Assembly (NCBI GenBank): GCA_002946415.1
Contig: NJPS01000048.1
Span: forward strand, 1,612,001 to 1,676,000
Direction of reading: 5' to 3'
Length of the DNA: 64,000 nt
From: Rutstroemia sp. NJR-2017a BVV2
Taxonomy: Eukaryota > Ascomycota > Leotiomycetes > Helotiales > Rutstroemiaceae
A program made the position numbers and the translations under genes. Of the stretch, positions 6,392-46,647 are shown one piece after another. Under the pieces are notes generated by a model. It saw only the letters and a program-made list of their open reading frames with translations. It was not told the DNA's origin and did not search any database. How positions within the stretch are numbered: the first letter of the stretch is position 1; every line of letters begins with the position of its first letter.

Positions 6392-9300
6392 TTACGCCTG
6401 TTCCACTACTGCTTCCTCCGTCTTCGGCTTCTTCTTTTTCTTCTTCGGCTTCACAACGTCGGGAGCCGGGGCTGCAGAAGGCTCCCCTTCTCCGTCATCG
6501 GCCACGGCCTTCTTGACCTTTTTCTTTTTCTTCACTACTGTTGCATCTTCTCCTTCAGTAGGTTTGACCTTCTTTTTTGTCTTCCTCTTTACGACGACTC
6601 CTTCGGGTGGTACATCCTGCGCAGCGTGGATCCTTTCATTGGCTCGTTGCATCTCCAAGCGTAACCTCTCTACCTCTTTCATGGCCTTGGCCATTTCGGC
6701 CTCTTCCCTTTGCTGCCGTTCGAAATCTATGCCAGTAGTATCGTCACCCTCAAGGGAGAATTCTCCAATATGACTAGAATCCACTTGTAATAATGATTGT
6801 TTCCCTCTGGCGACCCGGGCCCTCATTCCCTCTGCGCTATCGCCCGATTCGTTGGCTGGTGTTGAGGTTCCACTGAAATTGAGCGTCTCGTCTGCAGCGA
6901 CTTGTATCCGTTGACGTGGTTTCTTTTTGGCAGGCTTTTTGCTCTGTGCCGGGTCTAGGTTTGTCTTGCCAAGATCTAATTGCATGATCGGAATAGCATC
7001 AATATCCAGATCAGGCCCGTTGTTACTCCGAAGGATGTTGTGTAATGGTGTTGACATCCCGGACGCGCTGTCATTTGGCGCAATATAGAATGGGTCATCT
7101 TTGTTTCTTTCCAATCGTTCCGCTCGCCGCCGAGAAATTATGTCTGGATCGAGATACGAGTCTTCGCTACCCTGTTGATACGATGATACTTTCTCATCTA
7201 AAGCCCCGCCCAGTCGGTTGATAGCGGGCTCATTACTACTAATTGAGGTAGGTTCTTGCTTCTGGTGATAATAAACCTCGAATTCATCATCTTCCGGCTC
7301 ATCAAAGGAGATTATATCCACGTTCCGCAGTAGATTGTGCAAGTTCGGATTAATTGGCTGATCGAGATCCAACGATGAGGGTATTGGTACATTCCTTTGT
7401 GCTGTACTTGCAACCGAATTTAATTCCTGACCGCGGAACAACGAAGGGATCGCCTGTGTGAGTAGCAGTGGGGCATCATTCTGGATAGAGTCTGATGAGG
7501 GTTCCTGAGCAGCTGTCGCTTCCGCTGCCAGCTTGAGTAATTCCGAAAACTCTACTGCTCTTTCTTGTACCTCAAGATCAGGATGCATAGCTAATGGCTC
7601 TAGAGTATTGATTATACGAGCCATCAAAAGTGTCATCATAGTCTTCCGTTCGGCAGTCCATGGTGTTTCATCATCGCCAGCCATAAGAGCGAAGACCTTT
7701 ATCACCGCTTGAAGATATATGATTAAACCATCGGCAGATGTTGCTGCCTGCGTAATTTGTAGTAATGCTGTCAATGTATTCTCCGGTGACTCCAAATCAG
7801 TTGCGTACTCTCCTACTATCCACGATATTGGCCGCAGTGCGCCATTACCCGCGTTCATCTGAGTCGCGCTGTCATTGTAAAGTTGTACAAGTATCAATTC
7901 GGCGGCAGCGGCAGCTTGTGACCGGACTGCCTTCACTTTGACAGCTACGTTGCGAAGCTCATCACCAATTTTCTCGGAGATATTGCTGTTAGTGGTGCTC
8001 TCCGAATCTTGATCGAAAGACGACTGGCTTGTAACGGGAGCATTTCGAACTAGCTGAACCAGAACAGAAATATACCAATCAAAGTCAACTAAGTTGGCAT
8101 AGTTATTGCTTGAACACATCTCAAGTATCCTCGTGATGACATCAATCTTGTAATCATCCGGCAAGAGAACTTCTGGTGACGCTCCTTTATCGGATGTGAT
8201 TGCGACCTCGGGAGCTTCGTCGTCTGATTCTGCTTCAGGCTCAATGTGTCCTGTAGGTCGAGCTTTGCGGTCACCTGAAGGCGCTGGTGGGGCATTTCGA
8301 AGTTGTCTCATCAGCTTGCTAACGATAGACATGAGGTTATCGCTACTAACCATACCTACCACTAGATCCAAGGCGCGCAACCGGATTGAGATGTCGGCGC
8401 TGTCAATGCAGTCCATTATGACATCCTCTTGTTGCGCTACAAGGTTTGGATGTGTGACGACAATCTTGTTGAATGCAAGCAGAGCAACATATTTTACTTG
8501 TATATATCAGTGCCTTTACCCCTCAGCAATAAAAACAAGACCAACTTACAATTTGGGTCTCCTTCTACCATGATCATGCCGCGGAGCTTGCTGACGCATA
8601 AGGTAGCAATTTCATCTCCTCCTGCGGATTCATCACTGCTCCCCAAAATACCTCCTTGTATGATGCCATTTATGCATTCATACAACAAGGACATTGCAGG
8701 AGTTGTTCGGATTATGGAAGTCAGCGGCGGGAGCAGCTTTTTGACTAGTCTCGGCTCAAGGGGGGTAAGGGTAGCGAACTATAAGTTTGTTAGTGTCTAA
8801 TCTCGAATGCAGTCAATGCTACGAACAAGCTTGATCAACTTAATGGCCATCCAGTTGTTTCCACTATCCACAAGAAGCTCAAATAACCTCGGAGCCAGGG
8901 GCAAAAAGTCTTGTGGTCTTCGCCAACCTAGCTCACAAACTACATTTATAATAGCAGCGGTGACACTCGGGTTCTCCCCATCATCCATCAGTCTTTCCTT
9001 GATCTTCGGCCATGCTGGCCGCAGCGTTTCCGGATAAACCAAAGCTAATCTGTAAAGAGTAACAATGGTTTTCTTGCGAATCGCAGGATGTGAATGGGTC
9101 ATTCGCGGTAGAAGATCCGTAAGGACAGACATGGCGAGGGAGGGAGTGATGACGTGCGGTAGAGTTATGATAGGAAGTGATATCGTCGTCGGTGCCGAAG
9201 AGCCCAAGTCCTGCGAAATAATCAGCATGAAAGGAAAATATGAAGCCAGCTTTCTCTACCTTTTTGAGAAGATTCGTAGCGAGCATAAGAACTTCAGTAT

Positions 9301-13760: not shown

Positions 13761-16474
13761 ATGCCGTAAGCTTGTTGATTTCGCAGCAAACTCGTCTCAA
13801 TCGGGTTTGCGACACAGTCGGCGCTCTGAATATTGTGCTAATATCTTGCAGGTTAACCACCAGGCCACCTCGAATCAACATAGAGACTGCCCGTTCGCAG
13901 AGTCCTTTCACGAGCTCATCGCAGTCAACTTCAAACTCTCGATCCAATTCCTTCTCTGAGGGCTCATCAGGTACTGGAGCCCACGTTCCCTCTACCGACA
14001 GCCACGAATTTTCTGACGATTTAGACGATACTTGGGATCCAGTGTATTCTGACGAAATCGAACCATCCGAGTCTGCGTCGCGTCCACCAGCTCGCACATC
14101 AAGATATAGGGAACAAAGCACAAGTCGGCCACCGCCAGTTGACCGTCCATCGTACGAACGCCCTACACGTCGACACACCCCCGCTGCAGAACGCAATCAC
14201 CGTCCACCACCAACTCGCGTACATCGGCACACTGCGCCGGTGGCACCGCCAACCGTGGAGTCTCCAGACGATTACCCGGGCTATGGCCGAGGCTACCCCG
14301 CGCCAGCAGTACCCGGCCCATATGGTGCTAGAGCTCCCCCTCCCGCTCCTGGCTATGCTCCCAGTGCCTATTCCGCCCCGGCCGCGAGTAATAGCCCATA
14401 CGCACCTCCATTCGGCACTGCCCCACCACCCCCTGGTCCTGGAGCCCTAACCCATTATGGAGGAGGCTATCCACAATACACCCATAGCTCTTCCTCAAAT
14501 CCATTCGCTCCACAACCTTCGCCGAGTCCTGGTGGCGCCAGCTACTTTAACAGCCATAATGGCCATCTTCCAATGTCTGGCCATAGTACGCCTGGTGGAT
14601 ATCCAGGGCATGCAGGTGCTCATCATGCCAGTCCTCATCATGCCGGTGCTCATCATCCCGGTGGCCATCACGCTGGACACGAATTAATGCACTATGCGCC
14701 TCCTTCCCAAGGCTATTCTCCGTATCCCGGGTATCCTGGATATGTGCCCCCTGGCATGCCTCCTGGCGCACCAGGAGTACAGCAGGCATTGATGTCACCA
14801 GGAGGGATGCAATATTACCAACAACAATTTTCTCCTCCTGCGTCTGCTCCTACCGAGCCTACCCCTCCGGCTGTAGATATTGAACTAGAGAAGAAGTTGA
14901 TCCAAATGCAGGAAGAAATGAAACATGCGAAACTAGAGTCAGATAAAGCAAGAGAGGAGGCACAGAAGGCCCAGCAGGCATCAGCAGATGCTCAGCGAGC
15001 GCTTGCAGAGAAAGAGGCTCGAGAGGCAAAAGAGAAGAAAGACGCAGAGGAAGCAGCAGCTGCAGCGAAGAAATTGGCCGACGAAAGGGCAGAGTGGGCA
15101 AGAAAGGCCGCCGAGACCCAAGCGGCGATTGAGAAGAGAGCCGCAGAAAAGCAAGCAGAACTAGAAAAGAAAGCTGCTGAAATGGAGGCGGATCTGAGGA
15201 AGAAGGCTGCTGAGGCAGAGGCCGACTTGAAGAAGAGAATGGAAGAAGCACAGTCGATGTTAGCTGTCAAGCTTGCTCAGGAGGCGAAAGCGGAGAAGGA
15301 TGCCGCAGACGCTGCGCATGCCGCCGCTATCGAAGCTGCATGGGAAAAGAAAGCAGCAGAGAGACAAGCCGAGTTGGAAAAGAAAGCTGCGACTATGGAG
15401 GCAGAGCTGAAGAAGATGGCCGCCGATAACGAAGCAGACTTAAAGAAGAAAATGGAAGAAGCTCAGTCAGCCTTAGCAGCCAAGGTCGCCAAGGAAGAGA
15501 AAGAGGCAAGGGAGGCCGCCGAAGCCGCCGAGGCTGCAGCTATCAGAGCTCAATGGGAAAAGAAAATCAAAGACGCGGAGGAAGAAGCAGCCAAGAAAGC
15601 AGCCGCTGAAGCGACGGCAAAGGCCGAGGAAGAAGCAAAGAAAGCAGCAGAGGAGGCAAAGAAGGCACTGGATGATGCAAAGAAAGCAGCAGAGGCTGCC
15701 GCCGCTGCCGCTGCTGCTCCGCCCCCCGATGACAAAAAGAAGCCGATCAGGTTTAAGGATGCTGTTGGACGGAAATTCAGTTTCCCATTCCATCTATGTG
15801 CTACTTGGAGCGTAAGTCATTCTCATATTCGAAATGCAATATGTTGTTAACATCTACTATAGGGTATGGAAGAGTTGATCAAGCAAGCTTTCCTTCATGT
15901 TGAAGTTATTGGTCCACATGTACAAGAAGGACACTACGACTTGATTGGCCCTAACGGTGAGATTATTCTTCCACAAGTATGGGAGACAGTCATTGAACCT
16001 GATTGGTCCATCACGATGCATATGTGGCCACCGCCAGAGCCAAAAGCTGCCCCTCCAGAGCGCGCGGGGCCTCCAGGACCTCCTCCAATGGATCCCAATC
16101 ATGCCAGACCACGAAGCGGACACGGACATCGGCATCCTGGGTTCAATCCTCTGCGTCCGCCAACTATGCCTCCCGGTATGGGTCTTGGTGCTGCTGGTCT
16201 TAGTGCTGCTGGTCTTGGTGCTACAGGTCTTGGTGCCGGTGGTGCTAGAGCAGGACCGCCCCCACCTCCCCTAGGATTTCATATGCCTCCTGGTGTCGGG
16301 GGAAGACCTCCTCCACCGCCACCACAATTTCCTCCCGGGCCACCACCACCTCAAATTGTCACGGTTATGCCTGGCAAGCCCACAAGGAGAAAGACTGAGC
16401 CTGCTAAAGGCGTTCTGGGATGGATGGCTGGCAAGAAACCTGCGCCATCAAGCAAAGGCAGATCCAAAAAGTGA
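13761..16474 (+). CDS. Proline-rich/coiled-coil protein with C-terminal ubiquitin-like domain (ULD type), 858 aa
   Basis: Function unknown. Exons 13761-13765, 13852-15811 and 15863-16474; introns 86 bp (GTAAGC/TGCAG) and 51 bp (GTAAGT/ATAG). The total of 2577 nt is 859 codons. The first coding exon is only ATGCC; no ATG occurs early in the main exon frame, which is why I accept it. Seen: residues 1-120 Ser-rich; 120-360 Pro/Tyr/Gly-rich with a His-Gly-Ala block near 280-300; about 370-645 an uninterrupted Ala/Lys/Glu helix with 'EKKAAEMEA.LKKKMEEAQ' style repeats, a long coiled coil; about 650-730 the conserved FKDAVGRKFSFPFHLCATW-GMEELIKQAF...HYDLIGPNGEIILPQVWE module, a fungal ubiquitin-like domain; then a Pro/Gly tail ending in a basic segment. 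A scaffold role is inference. The coding shift from disordered to coiled coil to folded domain is typical of its fungal relatives. Confidence 0.75.
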
Positions 16475-29206: not shown

Positions 29207-30685
29207 TTACTTTTCCTTCTTCAATACCTTCCTCCCCATCATCCACGGCCACAAGCACTCAGGTACTGCAACCTCCTTCTTCTCCTCATTCCATCCATTC
29301 TCGAGAATCGCAGCAATTACCCTCGGCACCGCCAACGCAGTCCCATTCACCGTCCAAGGAAACGCCATCTTCCCCCCATTCTTCGGATTCTCCACTCTCG
29401 TTGCCAACCGTCTACTCTGATAGTCCCCGCAGATACTCAAGCTCGTCACCTCGCCCCACCCTTCATCTCGTTCCTTCCGCGACGGGAAATACGCCTCGAT
29501 ATCAATCTTCCGCATGGCGCTGGCTCCCAGATCCGTCGACGGCATCTCCAGAATCCGACAGTGCAGGCCGAGGGACTGCAGAATCTCCTGCTGGATCGAG
29601 AGCATGCTGTTGAATGTCGAGAGCGCGGATTCGTAGTCCGCTGAGGTCCATGCGAACATTTCCACTTTCGTGAATTCGTGCACCCGGTACAATCCCTTGG
29701 TATCGATTCCCCGCGCGCCCGCTTCTGCCCGGTAGCACCGCGACACGGCGATTTTCTTCAACGGGAGAGAGGACTCGGGAATCGTAGACGAGGCGTACAT
29801 AGCCGCGAGCGGGATCTCTGCCGTGCCGACGAGTGAGTGGGATGGTTTTCCGGATGCGGAATCAGAAGCAGATTGCGCGATGCTGTAGATTTGCTGCTCG
29901 CCGGATTGGTCGCGCGGCTGGAAACCGCAGGCTGATGCGATGTGCGAATAGACCATTGTGGGCGGGGATACAATCTCCCATCCTTGCGAGAGAGCGACAG
30001 AGATCGAGTATTGGGTGAGTGCTTGCTCGAGTAGTGCGGCGCCGTTGAGTAGGTAGTACCAGCCCCAGCCGCTGGTGGTGGAGGCGGAGCTGAAGTCGAG
30101 GAGGTGCAGTTCGGTGCCGATTTGGACGTGCGATGTGGAGGGGGAGGTGGGGGTGTCGGAGGGGGCGGGGTTGATCGTTCCTATTTGGGTGGGTTCGCTG
30201 CCGCGGGGGGTTTCGTGGGATGTGAGGTTGGGTATTGATGCGGCGAGAGTGTTGATTTCGTTTGTCAACTCTACTTCTTTGACCTCAATCCCTGAGATCT
30301 TCTCCTTCAGTTCCCTTGCTTCTTCAATCAACTTTGCTCGCTCCTCGTGTGACCTCGTCGAGAGCGGCTTTTTCAATTCCGCTTTTATGACATTATTTCG
30401 TTCGCGCAGTGCGCGCGCTTCATGCTGATATTCGTGCCATTGTGATGTGAGGTCTATGATTTTGGCAGGGTACGTCGATTGCTGTTTGTAGTTTCGTTCC
30501 AGACAGCTCTTCTCATAGACGGAGGGGTTCGTACGGATGTGTTTGATATCAATGGATTGTTTGGGCGCAATAGAGGGTACAGAGGCATTAGACTGTAGAC
30601 GAGAAGAGGCATGATATCGACGGTTTGGGCGGGCAAAGGAGCGGATTTGGCACCGTAAGCAGGTGAAGCGTTGCGTGGTTGACAT
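29207..30685 (-). CDS. Seryl-tRNA synthetase, probably mitochondrial
   Basis: Class II synthetase charging tRNA-Ser. Single exon, 492 aa. Seen: residues 1-30 form a basic presequence (MSTTQRFTCLRCQIRSFARPNRRYHASSRL) with an R-Y-H-A/S cleavage-like context, so mitochondrial import is likely. The N-terminal coiled-coil arm lies at about 45-150 (HIRTNPSVYEKSCLERN... ELKEKISGIEVKEVELTNEINTLAASIPN). The class II core follows: TGxxxE-like GTAEIPLAAMYA; motif 2 RCYRAEAGARGIDTKGLYRVHEFTKVEMF; and motif 3 TVNGTALAVPRVIAAILENGW. The cytosolic enzyme would lack the presequence. It is divergent from the tRNA-Arg gene, whose mature 5' end is about 320 bp away. Confidence 0.93.
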   Translation of the reverse strand: MSTTQRFTCLRCQIRSFARPNRRYHASSRLQSNASVPSIAPKQSIDIKHIRTNPSVYEKSCLERNYKQQSTYPAKIIDLTSQWHEYQHEARALRERNNVIKAELKKPLSTRSHEERAKLIEEARELKEKISGIEVKEVELTNEINTLAASIPNLTSHETPRGSEPTQIGTINPAPSDTPTSPSTSHVQIGTELHLLDFSSASTTSGWGWYYLLNGAALLEQALTQYSISVALSQGWEIVSPPTMVYSHIASACGFQPRDQSGEQQIYSIAQSASDSASGKPSHSLVGTAEIPLAAMYASSTIPESSLPLKKIAVSRCYRAEAGARGIDTKGLYRVHEFTKVEMFAWTSADYESALSTFNSMLSIQQEILQSLGLHCRILEMPSTDLGASAMRKIDIEAYFPSRKERDEGWGEVTSLSICGDYQSRRLATRVENPKNGGKMAFPWTVNGTALAVPRVIAAILENGWNEEKKEVAVPECLWPWMMGRKVLKKEK

Positions 30686-31003
30686 GGTTGGAAACCTTGA
30701 AGATAAATATATTTTCGCGATGCGGAGAGCTTGGGCTTGTTGCTAGAATTGTGGTCAGAGCTTCTGATTGGTGTGTTGCTTTGCAGCGTTGCAGTATGGG
30801 ATATGTCTCAACCACCTGCCAGAATGAGATTGTGCATAATACACTGACTCTTAAATCAACACATTTCTTCGTAAGACTCTTAGATGTCGTCCCTTTGTAC
30901 CTAAGAAAGTATGTGATGCTACGCATCTCATTTATTTCTTCTCGAGCCATGATTCTGCATCATGAATATTTAATCAAATTAGCCCCTTGTACAACATCCA
31001 ACT
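30686..31003. promoter_or_regulatory. Upstream region of SerRS and of the tRNA-Arg gene
   Basis: These 318 bp lie between the SerRS start (leftward) and the tRNA 5' end (rightward). They hold the SerRS promoter. AT-rich sequence (ATGAATATTTAATCAAATTA, about 30962-30981) sits 20-40 bp before the tRNA, a position where Pol III genes often carry TATA-like elements. Confidence 0.45.
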
Positions 31004-31010
31004 GTCAGGC

Positions 31011-31021
31011 TGGCGCAATGG
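31011..31021 (+). promoter_or_regulatory. Pol III A box of the tRNA gene
   Basis: TGGCGCAATGG matches the TRGCNNARTGG A-box pattern at the normal position (tRNA position 8 onward). Confidence 0.8.
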
Positions 31022-31055
31022 TAGCGCGCAAGACTTCTAATCTTGAGGTTGTGGG

Positions 31056-31120
31056 GTAAGTTCATAGAAACCTCACCATCATCACCAGAACACACATGCT
31101 AACGATTTTCCGCGCGCCAG
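31056..31120 (+). other. 65 bp intron interrupting the tRNA T-arm
   Basis: Begins GTAAGT and ends GCGCCAG, with TGCTAAC at 31098-31103 placing the branch A about 18 nt before the 3' end. Length, donor, branch site and acceptor all equal those of mRNA introns in this window. It lies between tRNA positions 53 and 54. Its last G takes the place of G53 in front of TTCGAGTC, so the B box consensus survives. Intron bases 31069-31074 (AACCTC) are perfectly complementary to tRNA bases 31045-31050 (GAGGTT). Confidence 0.75.
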
Positions 31121-31128
31121 TTCGAGTC
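31120..31128 (+). promoter_or_regulatory. Pol III B box, rebuilt with the intron's last base
   Basis: GTTCGAGTC matches GWTCRANNC. The first G is the final base of the intron. The A-to-B spacing is 109 bp instead of about 44 bp, still within the range tolerated by TFIIIC in intron-bearing tRNA genes. Confidence 0.7.
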
Positions 31129-31140
31129 CCACGTTTGATG

Positions 31141-31898
31141 CGATGCAATGCATTTCTTTTTTTGAATTTTTGATTCCATCATATTCGGCTTCAAAGCTAT
31201 TCAAGTTTGACCGCTGTCCATGTTTTTGGCTATCTGAGGAGCAGCAAATCTTCACGCGGGTCGACCTCTTCCCTCCACAGATAAGAAATCGAATACTGAT
31301 GTTTTCAGACACGACTTCTCGAAGTAGTAGAGAGAAATGAAGTGAATCCGACGACTTAGATACTAAGTATATATAGTATATGACTCCAAGTTAACATCAT
31401 ATAGTAGATTCCAACTCGTATTGATGCACACCAAACTATATACTTTGATTTCGACATATGCTCCGACTTCTCCTCCAGGGGTACTATGCCAAACTCCGAG
31501 TATCAAAAATTGAAACAAAATAAGGAAAAAAGAAAAACCAAAAAGGTTGTGAGGGTATCCTGTATGACATTTCATAGCATATCATTTCCATAGTTCGTTC
31601 GTTCGTCCGTCCGTTCTTTTCGCATTAACATGAAATTTGAGAGAAAAGGTAAATGAGAGCATGAGAAAAGAAAAAACGTGCTGTTTGTTTGTGTCGTTAG
31701 TAGTCGTAAGTGGGTCGGAGTGTATGTCGTGTTGTACGAAGTGATGAGATGGCGCCTTGCGTACGTCTCGTTCCGTTGTGATCTCTCTTCGTTGATGTGT
31801 CGCTTTCCTCCATGCTATTGACAAGTTATCAGAAAGAGACGCGTCATCTCGTAAGTCATGTTTTCTAGCCAGCCCCGCTCCCCCCTTCCCTGCTTCCC
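31141..31898. other. Non-coding interval after the tRNA
   Basis: About 760 bp. Apart from the T7 terminator it is AT-rich (TATATAGTATATGA region 31368-31382) and contains a GTTCGTTCGTCCGTCCG run near 31593-31614. No gene. The right part should be the 3' UTR of the BTB gene. Confidence 0.5.
31157..31163 (+). terminator. Pol III terminator (T7)
   Basis: A run of seven T starts 17 bp after the discriminator base, preceded by TTTC. This is the usual Pol III stop and suggests the gene is or was transcribed. Confidence 0.75.
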
Positions 31899-43503: not shown

Positions 43504-46500
43504 CTACACCTCAGTCAGATCCACAACCTCGACCTCCTCCCCCCTCCACGCTCTACTCCTCCCCTCCACCAGCTCTTCCCTGCCCACCTCTCTCCAAAAC
43601 CCCGGCAACGACTCTCTCAACATGATATACCTCTTCTTACTACCATCCTTCTTTTTCTGGCCCCCTTGATCCAGCTCCTGTTCCACATTCATCACAATTT
43701 CCACCTCGCTTTCAATCTCCATGTCCACTTCCACTTCCATTTCCTGCGCCTCCACAACCTCCGGCACCGGTGAACAAGGTGCAGATGACTGCTCAACACT
43801 AAGGCCCATATCCGCGAGATACACCTGTTCATCAACATCCAATTCCCGCACGCTTGCGGGGATGCGTTCCGAAGAGTTCAGATTGTGGATAATAGATTGG
43901 TGGAGCCCCATGTCGTGGATGTATTGCTGTTCGGGGGAGGGGAGATCGGTGATTTCGTTGGATTTGGGGATGGGGGTGCGGGCGTTGAGGGGGTAGGGGG
44001 AGGAGGATTGGTGGGCGAGGGGTGAGGAGCGAGGGGATGGGGATGAGAGGTCGATTATTTGGGAGGGCGCGGTGTTGTAGGAGGAGGTGGAGGCGCTGGA
44101 TTTCGCGGCGGAGGAGTGCAGGGCGAAATTTATTTGGCGGTTGACGGGTTGCGGGGTCAGAGGTGTGCGGCGGGTTGGAGAGGAGTGCATGGCTGGTTTG
44201 GTGGCGCTGTGCGGGGGAGAACGCTTTTTGCGAGGGAAGGGTTTATCGGCTTCTTGGGAGCGATAGCGGGGGAGGTCTGTAGCGGGAGATCGTTCGTCAT
44301 CATCATTCAGAGGAACTGGTAGTCGCCGGCTATGCCTTTTGGATGCTGATTTGGGTGGTGGTGTGGAAGTAGGAATGCAATCGTTCTCCACCTCCGGACT
44401 TGTACTGAGATCGTAGACTTGATGTCTCTTGGTTCTCCGAGCTTGTGATTGTTTAGTAGCTCTAGAAGACGGATTTAACCTTGATAGTGAGTTCGGCTTC
44501 GGACTTGGACTCATTGTGTAAGCTTGAAATGCTGCTGTCGGTGACACAAGTTTTTCCGCACACAAAGGCTTGGGTCTTGGCAAAGGTTGAGAGTTGGTCA
44601 GGGAAGTTGAATCCGTCTTTCTGTTTGGTCTCCGCTTTTGCTTGTCCCGGGAAGATGATAACGCAGGAGGTTCAGGTACAGAGTCAGGGCTTCCGCTTGG
44701 TTGGTAGATTTGGAACTTTTCGGTCGGTGTTCCTGTTCCTCTGGCATGAGAAGGTTTGGTTATTGGAGCTAAGGGTTTTGAAGAAGACGACTGAGAAATG
44801 TCCCAAGGGTTCTGTCTGGCCTTGGGTTTTTCGTTCGCGGTGGTAGTTTTTCGTGTCCGTCGTTTAATCACACCGACGGGTATGGGAGATTTAGGACTAT
44901 CCAATGCAGGAGCCAGGAAAGCGGGTGGTAATTTCTCTCTGGATAAGTCTGAGTCTTCGATGACTTCGCCAGGGATCTTTGTCGTGTTTCTTGTGCTTGT
45001 CTTAGAGATCTGAACGAATGGCTCCAATGCTCCTTGTCGCATTCCGCCAGTAGATTTTGTCGTCTTCGCTGCAGCTTTCTTAGCAGTAGCTTTTTGCTTA
45101 AGAAATTTCCTAGGATCGCGAAGAGACTCATCATAATCCTCTGATGTCAATGGAGCGCCAATTTTAACTAATGTTTCCGCTACCCATAGCTTGTCAGCTT
45201 TCGTTGGATCGTATAATGAAGGTCCTCGTTTCCGTGGCGAATCATCAACTGCACCAGCATCGTCAGACGCATAGGCTTCAATTTGATCATCCTCAAGTAA
45301 AGGTGCAAGTCCATCTCTGCCATAATCATGGATATCATCGTCTTGCTCCTCGTCTGGGTCAATGCCAACAATCTCCAAAGGGTGATAGATGACTCTCATC
45401 TCAGGCATTCCATCTGTGCTGATATGTTCTCGCTGTCCACATATCGACCTGACCAAAGCCATCTCGTTGAGTTTGGTGAGAACAAGGTCGTCCAAACCAG
45501 AGTCTGGACGATCCCCACGTTGCCGTAACCTTAGAACGAGTAGAGCCGGTGCTAAGCCTCTTACAAATTTCTTGACTCCCTCCTTTCCTTTCCATTCAAA
45601 TGCATCCGCAACAAAAGCTCGGAGCTTCTGAATGTCCAGTTCACCGTCCCAGACAATCTGCTCTTTCAGCCTCTGTACTTTCGCTGCTGAAGAGACCACC
45701 GGATGCGTGTAATAACCGAGTACCTTCCTGTCCGGGAAATCCTCTGGAATCTGCTGAGCCTTCCTCTTCACCTTGAAGAACTTGCTTTCATTAGTCTTCA
45801 GCTCATATGCCAAGCTATTTCTCCACGCTTCATAACCGGCAGTGTCAGCTCTTGGGATTTGACATAAGCTCTTCCCAAATCCGGCTCTAGCTGCTTCACA
45901 TGCCACTTTGACTCCACACCCAGGAATGCCCTCAGTCTTGTAGTCCCCCCCACTCATTAATGCAACAAGAATCATTCCCTCACGGTCCAGCCCAGATCTA
46001 CCCGCCTTGGTCTTTGCTGCATCGTAGACATTAACGTGGGTCGGAATCTTTGCTTTGGTGGTTTCAGCCGACCAATTGCGGAAGGTTAGACCACTTCCGA
46101 ACATAAGTGTATCAACATCCTCACTAAGAACTGCATCCACAATGCCTTCACGCTGTAATAAAGCACACTCCGCTTCGGCTTCTCCAGGCGCAATGTGGTA
46201 CGCAAAACCGAACAGCTTAAGTAGCTCCTTACTCATGAGATCCGGAATCGAAGCTCCACCGTGTCCGGTGCGCTTGTTACGCTTGACGGGTGGCTTATGA
46301 GGTCCATCGAATACGAATAGCGGCTGTATGGAGACAGACAGGAGTCTGAGAAGCCGGTAATATAGTGTTCGTAAGGCGGGATTTGTGCCACCTAAACACT
46401 ATTGAGTGGTGATCCTGATAATCATGTGCTCAGGAGCTCACCTTGACCGGCTTGGATTTGGAAGTTCCAGATCGAGATATCGATTGCTACTCTTAATGGT

Positions 46501-46647
46501 ACTCCAGTCTTCTCAAACTTTTCTATTGAGAGCTTCACCAACGAGACTCTATCCCCAGGACCAATCTCTCCATAAATCCTACACAAATGTCAGCTCAAGC
46601 TCATGGATCTCATACCGTCGCCACTCAACGTACCCTTTAATGCCCAT
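43504..46647 (-). CDS. YEN1: GEN1/Yen1-like Holliday-junction resolvase (XPG/FEN1 family nuclease), 1012 aa
   Basis: Structure-specific endonuclease that cuts Holliday junctions and flaps in the nucleus. Exons 46634-46647 (14 nt), 46442-46578 and 43504-46391; introns 55 bp (GTACGT/GTAG) and 50 bp (GTGAGC/TTAG). The total of 3039 nt is 1013 codons. Seen: N-terminal MGIKGIYGEIGPGDRVSL (GEN-type rather than FEN1 MGI-x-GL), the catalytic Asp in RVAIDISIWNFQ, FVFDGPHKPPVKR, then the XPG-I core IAPGEAEAECALLQREGIVDAVLSEDVDTLMFG with EAEAE and DVD metal ligands, and a helix-two-turn-helix GGDYKTEGIPGCGVKVACEAA. A chromodomain-like part typical of GEN1 may lie near residues 300-400. The last 600 residues are disordered, Ser/Pro/Lys-rich with many SP/TP sites, consistent with cell-cycle phosphorylation of Yen1. 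Confidence 0.88.

Follow-up and report, generated by a model that had tools for sequence, protein, structure and literature searches.

Introns in the nuclear tRNA genes of fungi are known between positions 37 and 38 and are cut by the tRNA splicing endonuclease. Spliceosomal introns occur in the U6 snRNA genes of some fungi, and fungal U2-type introns have a consensus donor. Can an intron of the mRNA type reside in a nuclear tRNA gene? To our knowledge no spliceosomal intron has been described there. A limited literature search returned nothing on spliceosomal introns in tRNA, which leaves their absence from print unestablished, and no word beginning with 'spliceosom' occurs in the main text of PMC4090602, PMC8450103 or PMC4033280. 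The bulge-helix-bulge introns of archaea, nucleomorphs and Cyanidioschyzon occupy non-canonical tRNA sites such as 53/54 and positions near the acceptor stem; according to the available part of the source, bulge-helix-bulge motifs guide the splicing enzyme in archaea and Cyanidioschyzon (PMC4090602).

Here we describe six tRNA genes of the fungus Rutstroemia sp. NJR-2017a BVV2 whose introns carry the signals of mRNA introns. Like the canonical 37/38 introns, which are handled by the Sen endonuclease and the Trl1 ligase, these introns interrupt nuclear tRNA genes; unlike them, they split the genes at 53/54, about 47/48 and 4/5 and possess GT-AG and branch signals. They resemble the bulge-helix-bulge introns in position, but show mRNA-type signals and belong to nuclear fungal genes. 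With the U2-type (GT-AG) introns of fungal nuclear mRNAs they share a GTRNGY donor, a YTRAY motif 10–18 nt before a YAG end and a similar size (48–65 nt vs. 48–55 nt for the mRNA introns), yet they are found in genes with Pol III-type boxes and T-runs and without coding sequence. As in the fungal U6 genes, a spliceosomal intron would here lie inside a non-coding RNA transcribed by Pol III; in contrast to U6, the host is a tRNA, and no tie to the spliceosome's own RNA explains the insertion. The only U6 gene above the cut-off in this genome is contiguous over positions 1–105 and intronless, so U6 does not provide a further example of a spliced Pol III transcript here.

The first split gene was found in the window, as we call the whole stretch of 64,000 nucleotides that was analysed (contig NJPS01000048.1, positions 1,612,001 to 1,676,000 of the forward strand, assembly GCA_002946415.1). 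It encodes tRNA-Arg(UCU) at 31004–31140 on the plus strand. Exon 1 (31004–31055, 52 nt) holds the 5' strand of the acceptor stem, the D arm, the anticodon arm, the variable loop and the 5' strand of the T stem; the anticodon TCT at 31036–31038 was assigned by ARAGORN on the joined exons and by a cloverleaf score. The spliceosome-type intron between tRNA positions 53 and 54 (31056–31120, 65 nt) starts with the donor GTAAGT, ends with the acceptor CCAG and contains the branch-site motif TGCTAAC (31097–31103), whose branch A at 31102 lies 18 nt before the intron end. Exon 2 (31121–31140, 20 nt) supplies the T loop, the 3' strands of the T and acceptor stems and the discriminator G73. The preliminary description had already read these three splice signals, as the sequence confirms, and had proposed that removal of 31056–31120 restores a cloverleaf with anticodon UCU. 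That proposal is borne out: among 3211 excisions of 30–67 nt, this one ranks first by cloverleaf score, tied only with a one-base slide that yields the identical product. After excision, 14/14 invariant positions are present, as in every split gene scored, and the 21 pairs of the stems are complete; in the acceptor stem, three of seven pairs are G-U.

Standard tools see the gene poorly in its unspliced form. ARAGORN reports no tRNA in the unspliced window, whether introns are allowed or not, and the Rfam tRNA model yields a single mis-folded match of 30.1 bits (31007–31074) that includes intron bases. Once 31056–31120 is removed, ARAGORN calls tRNA-Arg(tct). We dropped this call as proof of the junction, since the program is permissive and named a tRNA for 610 of 2542 excisions of the window gene, and, over the four genes scanned, for 217–879 of 1845–2542 excisions in each; the stricter cloverleaf score was adopted for this reason. 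An exact 26-mer spanning the end of exon 1 and the donor has no match in GTDB genomes or IMG/VR, a result uninformative on fungi. Adjoining the split tRNA-Arg gene is a seryl-tRNA synthetase gene (29207–30685, minus strand) whose best matches among solved structures are mitochondrial enzymes.

The preliminary description had suggested a search for other tRNA-Arg(UCU) genes. Comparison of the spliced 72-mer with the organism's own assembly (43.4 Mb, 79 contigs) returned two loci, the window gene and one further copy on contig C36 (C36:274517–274563, minus strand), where the match ends exactly at nucleotide 52 of the 72-mer. This copy, too, is split at 53/54, the identical site, by a 48-nt intron of the form GTATGT...GCTAAC...ACAG. 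The two introns show no clear resemblance: they agree at 30 of 65 aligned positions, with z 2.0 relative to shuffled sequences. Comparison of the 1-kb flanks of the genes gave nothing better than E 0.035. Nucleotides 8–65 of the tRNA are identical in the two copies (57/57), as is the last base. Five of the seven acceptor-stem pairs differ, four of them changed on both sides, and all seven are paired in both copies, even though the two strands of this stem lie in different exons. Across the spliced arginine set, composed of the two Arg(UCU) tRNAs and the Arg(CCU) tRNA described below, 63/63 pair cells hold standard pairs; these are three related sequences, and the shuffle control leaves their relatedness in. 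A fixed site, preserved signals and maintained pairing across an intron that has itself diverged point to a working intron and are unexpected for a dead gene. A pattern search for further introns at 53/54 gave 31 matches against 46 in the reversed control, the window gene being the only one recognised among the matches listed; the C36 copy does not fit the search pattern. With a stricter pattern the window gene alone was recovered, and the reversed control also gave one match. Seven matches of the 53/54 pattern, spaced 102 or 204 bp apart, mark a likely tandem array of 102-bp period at C35:97278–98021.

A second family of split genes specifies tRNA-Ser(AGA). The spliced 82-mer identifies three genes in the same assembly, at C43:1254735–1254870 (plus strand), C43:1256270–1256405 (minus strand) and C33:391037–391173 (minus strand). 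Each is interrupted at the same variable-arm position, about 47/48. Their introns of 54–55 nt read GTAAGC...CTAAT or CTAAC...TTCCAG; the two on C43 are identical, and that on C33 is a homologue (43/55 positions alike). Inspection of the sequences shows a two-sided change in the acceptor stem of these genes as well, T3-A70 vs. C3-G70. The cloverleaf score leaves many ties at the Ser(AGA) junction, and in the C33 gene one other excision scores slightly higher. Because the score omits the variable arm, it does not fix this junction by itself; the GT-AG signals do.

The third family is represented by a gene for tRNA-Arg(CCU) at C39:547517–547653, the only locus found with the spliced sequence. Its match to the Rfam model covers positions 8–63 of 71 and lacks the acceptor stem. 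The missing strand is found upstream: a 4-nt exon, GGCC, is followed by a 52-nt intron (GTAAGT...TATTAAC...CCTAG) at 4/5 and then by TGTTGGCTC. When GGCC is joined to TGT, seven of seven acceptor pairs form, and only the joined sequence pairs. Nine upstream GT dinucleotides are candidate donors, and GGCC^GTAAGT alone gives 4/4 pairs. Once the 37/38 intron is cut out, at an assumed 13 nt because that length gives a full cloverleaf, the 4/5 excision ranks first of 1950 with no tie. This gene seems to carry an ordinary 37/38 intron beside the one at 4/5, and thus to need two splicing systems.

How do these introns compare with those of the host's mRNAs? The six tRNA introns measure 48–65 nt; their donors are GTAAGT, GTATGT, GTAAGC (in the three Ser genes) and GTAAGT, their branch motifs CTAAC, CTAAC, CTAAT, CTAAT, CTAAC and TTAAC, with the A 10–18 nt from the end, and all six close with CAG or TAG. 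For comparison, we used five mRNA introns of the window: one in a ULD_2-domain gene on the plus strand (15812–15862, 51 nt, GTAAGT..GTTAAC..TAG), two in an adaptin gene on the minus strand (8779–8826, 48 nt, GTTCGT..ACTAAC..TAG; 8497–8549, 53 nt, GTAAGT..ACTGAT..AAG) and two in a GEN1-like gene, also on the minus strand (46579–46633, 55 nt, GTACGT..GCTGAC..TAG, with the frame set by eye; 46392–46441, 50 nt, GTGAGC..TAG, without a clear branch motif). This small sample, placed by eye from the continuity of reading frames, spans 48–55 nt and shows GTNNGY in 5/5, an AG end in 5/5 (four YAG, one AAG) and a CTRAY or TTAAC branch motif in 4/5, with the A 10–12 nt from the end. Placement by eye was chosen because an automated ORF-joining count gave no clean consensus; it yielded 6 candidates, and another run gave 29, of which 6 had a branch motif; in the complement control 13 candidates were counted, 1 of them with the motif. 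The claim in the preliminary description that the tRNA intron carries the signals of the window's mRNA introns therefore stands on five introns, four of which have the branch motif. The protein of the GEN1-like gene matches the solved nuclease-like proteins 6grb (413 bits) and 5cnq (392 bits), both presumably from Chaetomium thermophilum, and 5t9j (Flap endonuclease GEN homolog 1; 55 bits), which we take to be human. These scores point to a filamentous ascomycete as the likely host.

Chance occurrence of the full signal set is rare. Among 400000 random window segments (48, 52, 54 or 65 nt long), 5 had a GTRNGY donor with a YAG end and YTRAY placed with its A 10–20 nt from the end, the motif ranges having been chosen after the introns were seen. 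Nor is the combination a feature of ordinary tRNA introns here: GTRNGY together with YAG occurs in 0/28 ARAGORN-called introns of other tRNA genes, each examined at five shifts. A bare GT...AG is present in two of the 28, a 14-nt intron in L046 and a 65-nt insert (donor GTCTGA) in a doubtful tRNA-like gene of L049. The latter belongs to a tandem pair with long anticodon-loop inserts (L049 344–489 and 658–794, that is C34:1185243–1185388 and 1185557–1185693, minus strand); the first is read with a CAT anticodon and has the 65-nt GT...AG insert, one acceptor position is unpaired in both, and the pair may represent tRNAs, pseudogenes or a repeat. Group I and group II introns are excluded at 48–65 nt, and self-splicing was dropped on length.

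These signals bear on the possibility that the tRNA splicing endonuclease and tRNA ligase act at non-canonical positions, as in archaea and some algae, with the GT-AG appearance being incidental. The enzyme should be active, as many genes in the genome have 37/38 introns (27 were used here), and archaea are known to have non-canonical tRNA introns at 53/54 and 3/4, nucleomorphs and Cyanidioschyzon at further positions, as the available part of one source reports (PMC4090602). Against this, GTRNGY, a branch motif and YAG recur in introns without clear mutual similarity, and the endonuclease requires none of these. We also looked for bulge-helix-bulge folds, defined by two 3-nt bulges around a 4-bp helix at the junctions. 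With at least three of four central pairs and three of three outer pairs, the fold was present in none of five split genes (the Arg(UCU) and Ser(AGA) genes) and in 10 of 27 canonical genes, a weak test in which the canonical genes were given more shifts. Summed scores overlap, at 3–5 for the split genes and 4–6 for the canonical ones. The A-I pair was counted in 23/27 canonical tRNA-intron genes, in one orientation and in this class of genes only. We regard removal by the endonuclease as improbable.

Which polymerase would transcribe the split genes? The A-box and B-box consensus of tRNA genes served as the guide to internal promoters. At 31120–31129 on the plus strand the window gene retains a B-box-like GTTCGAGTCC, in which the last intron base, G, replaces G53; the preceding position is A, as opposed to G52 in the spliced tRNA. 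The context CAG|TTCGAGTCCC is common to both Arg(UCU) copies, so that the B-box-like sequence is kept in each save for this A. Since the last intron G rebuilds GTTCGAGTCC, this may be why 53/54 tolerates an intron. Downstream, a T7 run at 31157–31163 (plus strand) forms a likely Pol III terminator. Runs of T5–T8 follow shortly downstream in six of six split tRNA genes, and a run of at least five Ts lies within 60 nt in 44/53 reference tRNA genes. No T5 occurs inside any of the six spliceosome-type introns; the window intron has one TTTT, a possible weak Pol III stop, and TTTT is found inside 5/53 reference tRNA genes too. Upstream of the window gene there is no exact TATA within 70 nt. An AT-rich stretch, GAATATTTAATC, at 30964–30975 on the plus strand, about 30–40 nt upstream of the gene, is a possible TATA-like element by a weak assignment; 32 of the 46 other tRNA genes inspected have TATA-like words at −65 to −20, many at about −30 to −60. 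The likely transcription-start region, ACAACATCCAACT (30991–31003, plus strand), carries WCMAA at −7. Words of this type are found within 40 nt upstream of 31/53 reference tRNA genes, and the start-site-like motif ATCAA in the same interval of 24/53, as compared to 6.2 in shuffles. Retention of Pol III terminators and internal boxes in the split genes suggests transcription by Pol III.

In the Arg(CCU) gene the upstream elements depend on where the count starts. With the 4-nt exon as reference, TATA is at −45 and ATCAAACA close to −18. If the tRNA is taken to begin at exon 2 instead, the closest TATA falls at −15 and so not within the −65 to −20 range, and a start-site-like word is present at −8 as well. 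The spacing of TATA and ATCAAACA thus makes initiation by Pol III ahead of the 4-nt exon the more likely reading. The intron then sits between start site and A box and shifts the latter about 52 nt downstream. This displacement, and a first exon that reads ACAAACATGGCC^GTAAGT and resembles a coding start, would also suit tRNAs that are exons of RNA polymerase II transcripts, with the tRNA cut out of a capped and spliced RNA. We judge such an origin very unlikely, as T5–T8 runs lie directly downstream of the genes, A- and B-box-like sequences are kept, and the TATA of the Arg(CCU) gene stands at a tRNA-type distance from the 4-nt exon.

Do intact copies exist that would make the split genes dispensable? 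Searches of the own genome with the spliced sequences revealed none for Arg(UCU), Ser(AGA) or Arg(CCU), the last being sought with its spliced sequence alone. Patterns for intact Arg(UCU) that do not depend on stem sequence were applied at two stringencies. The strict one matched C39:84938, which was rejected because it lies in a tRNA-Met gene (L076 1414–1542, C39) whose long canonical 37/38 intron holds an Arg(UCU)-like loop word. Eight further matches to the relaxed pattern included no tRNA at the Rfam gathering score (0/8). For intact Ser(AGA), the pattern search returned six matches, compared with seventeen in the reversed control; none of the six looked like a tRNA from the letters listed. 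The census behind these searches is partial. The Rfam tRNA family search scored 63 of 1404 first-look candidates, and the DNA search misses genes about 70% alike: a yeast Arg(UCU) query missed both known copies, and a concatenated yeast-tRNA query found tRNA-Phe-like places only (6 matches, 4 places). A divergent intact Arg(UCU) gene with a 37/38 intron could for this reason have been missed. Demand for the tRNA is evident from the window, where six ORFs use AGA for 61 of 5520 codons. By standard decoding rules AGA needs an Arg(UCU) tRNA, and all copies found are split, so that AGA decoding would depend on the spliceosome.

The partial census leaves room for the view that intron gain inactivated the split copies and that the organism uses intact genes elsewhere. 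The part of the literature at hand offers a precedent, in that short D-arm and T-arm insertions in eukaryotes mostly affect a single gene out of many synonymous ones, the affected genes being presumed pseudogenes (PMC4090602). In Rutstroemia, on the other hand, every copy found is split in all three isoacceptors (2/2, 3/3 and 1/1), the tRNA body is identical between the Arg(UCU) copies, acceptor changes occur pairwise across introns, splice signals are kept while introns diverged, and the patterns for intact Arg(UCU) and Ser(AGA) led to no such gene within the reach of the searches. Silencing by intron gain had been one option in the preliminary description; the same-site intron on C36, the covariation in the acceptor stem and the failure to find an intact Arg(UCU) gene in our searches make it highly unlikely.

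An assembly or contamination artefact, conceivable because the assembly is redundant where C25 and C74 share matches at identical coordinates, can be practically dismissed, given six split genes on C43, C36, C33 and C39 with four distinguishable intron lineages, and a window that also carries fungal-type genes with similar introns. The matches common to C25 and C74 are three tRNAs and one weak U6-like match, which suggests redundancy there and possibly inflated copy counts; C8 and C37 share tRNA pairs with equal spacing.

We conclude that these are, very probably, working nuclear tRNA genes whose Pol III precursors carry U2-type spliceosomal introns at 53/54, about 47/48 and 4/5. Action of the spliceosome on a Pol III transcript had been among the options first raised for the window gene, and it is now favoured by two more split families, by the branch motifs and by the preserved T-runs and boxes. 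As judged from the DNA, the pathway might run as follows. Pol III would make a tRNA precursor with a short leader, in which U1, U2 and the rest of the spliceosome would recognise the GTRNGY donor, the YTAAY branch and the YAG acceptor. By the usual two steps a lariat would be released and the tRNA exons joined. The acceptor stem or the T arm would fold only after joining, and RNase P, tRNase Z and modification enzymes would act then, so that splicing would precede end processing.

With mRNA-type introns in several tRNA genes, among them both genes found for the AGA-reading tRNA, production of basic RNAs of translation seems to require the machinery that splices mRNA. Looking further, it appears likely, with somewhat less assurance than for the genes themselves, that this lineage has spliceosomal introns as an established third class beside the known tRNA introns, that several isoacceptors, all cytosolic tRNA-Arg(UCU) among them, can be made by the spliceosome only, that AGA translation is tied to mRNA splicing capacity and that similar genes may lie unseen in other fungi. 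The available part of the tRNAscan-SE 2.0 paper describes a search for non-canonical introns for archaeal-model candidates (PMC8450103), and such fungal genes may therefore be overlooked; introns of this kind could explain some tRNAs missed by annotation. They would also show that a tRNA can host an intron in its T arm or as few as four bases from its start. The textbook division assigns the spliceosome to Pol II RNAs and an endonuclease with a ligase to tRNAs, a boundary that the split genes, in a nuclear genome, would breach. They would make the limits on spliceosome substrates, whether a cap, a Pol II tail or the signals alone, directly testable. If this is true, an essential decoding activity would be under the control of the spliceosome.
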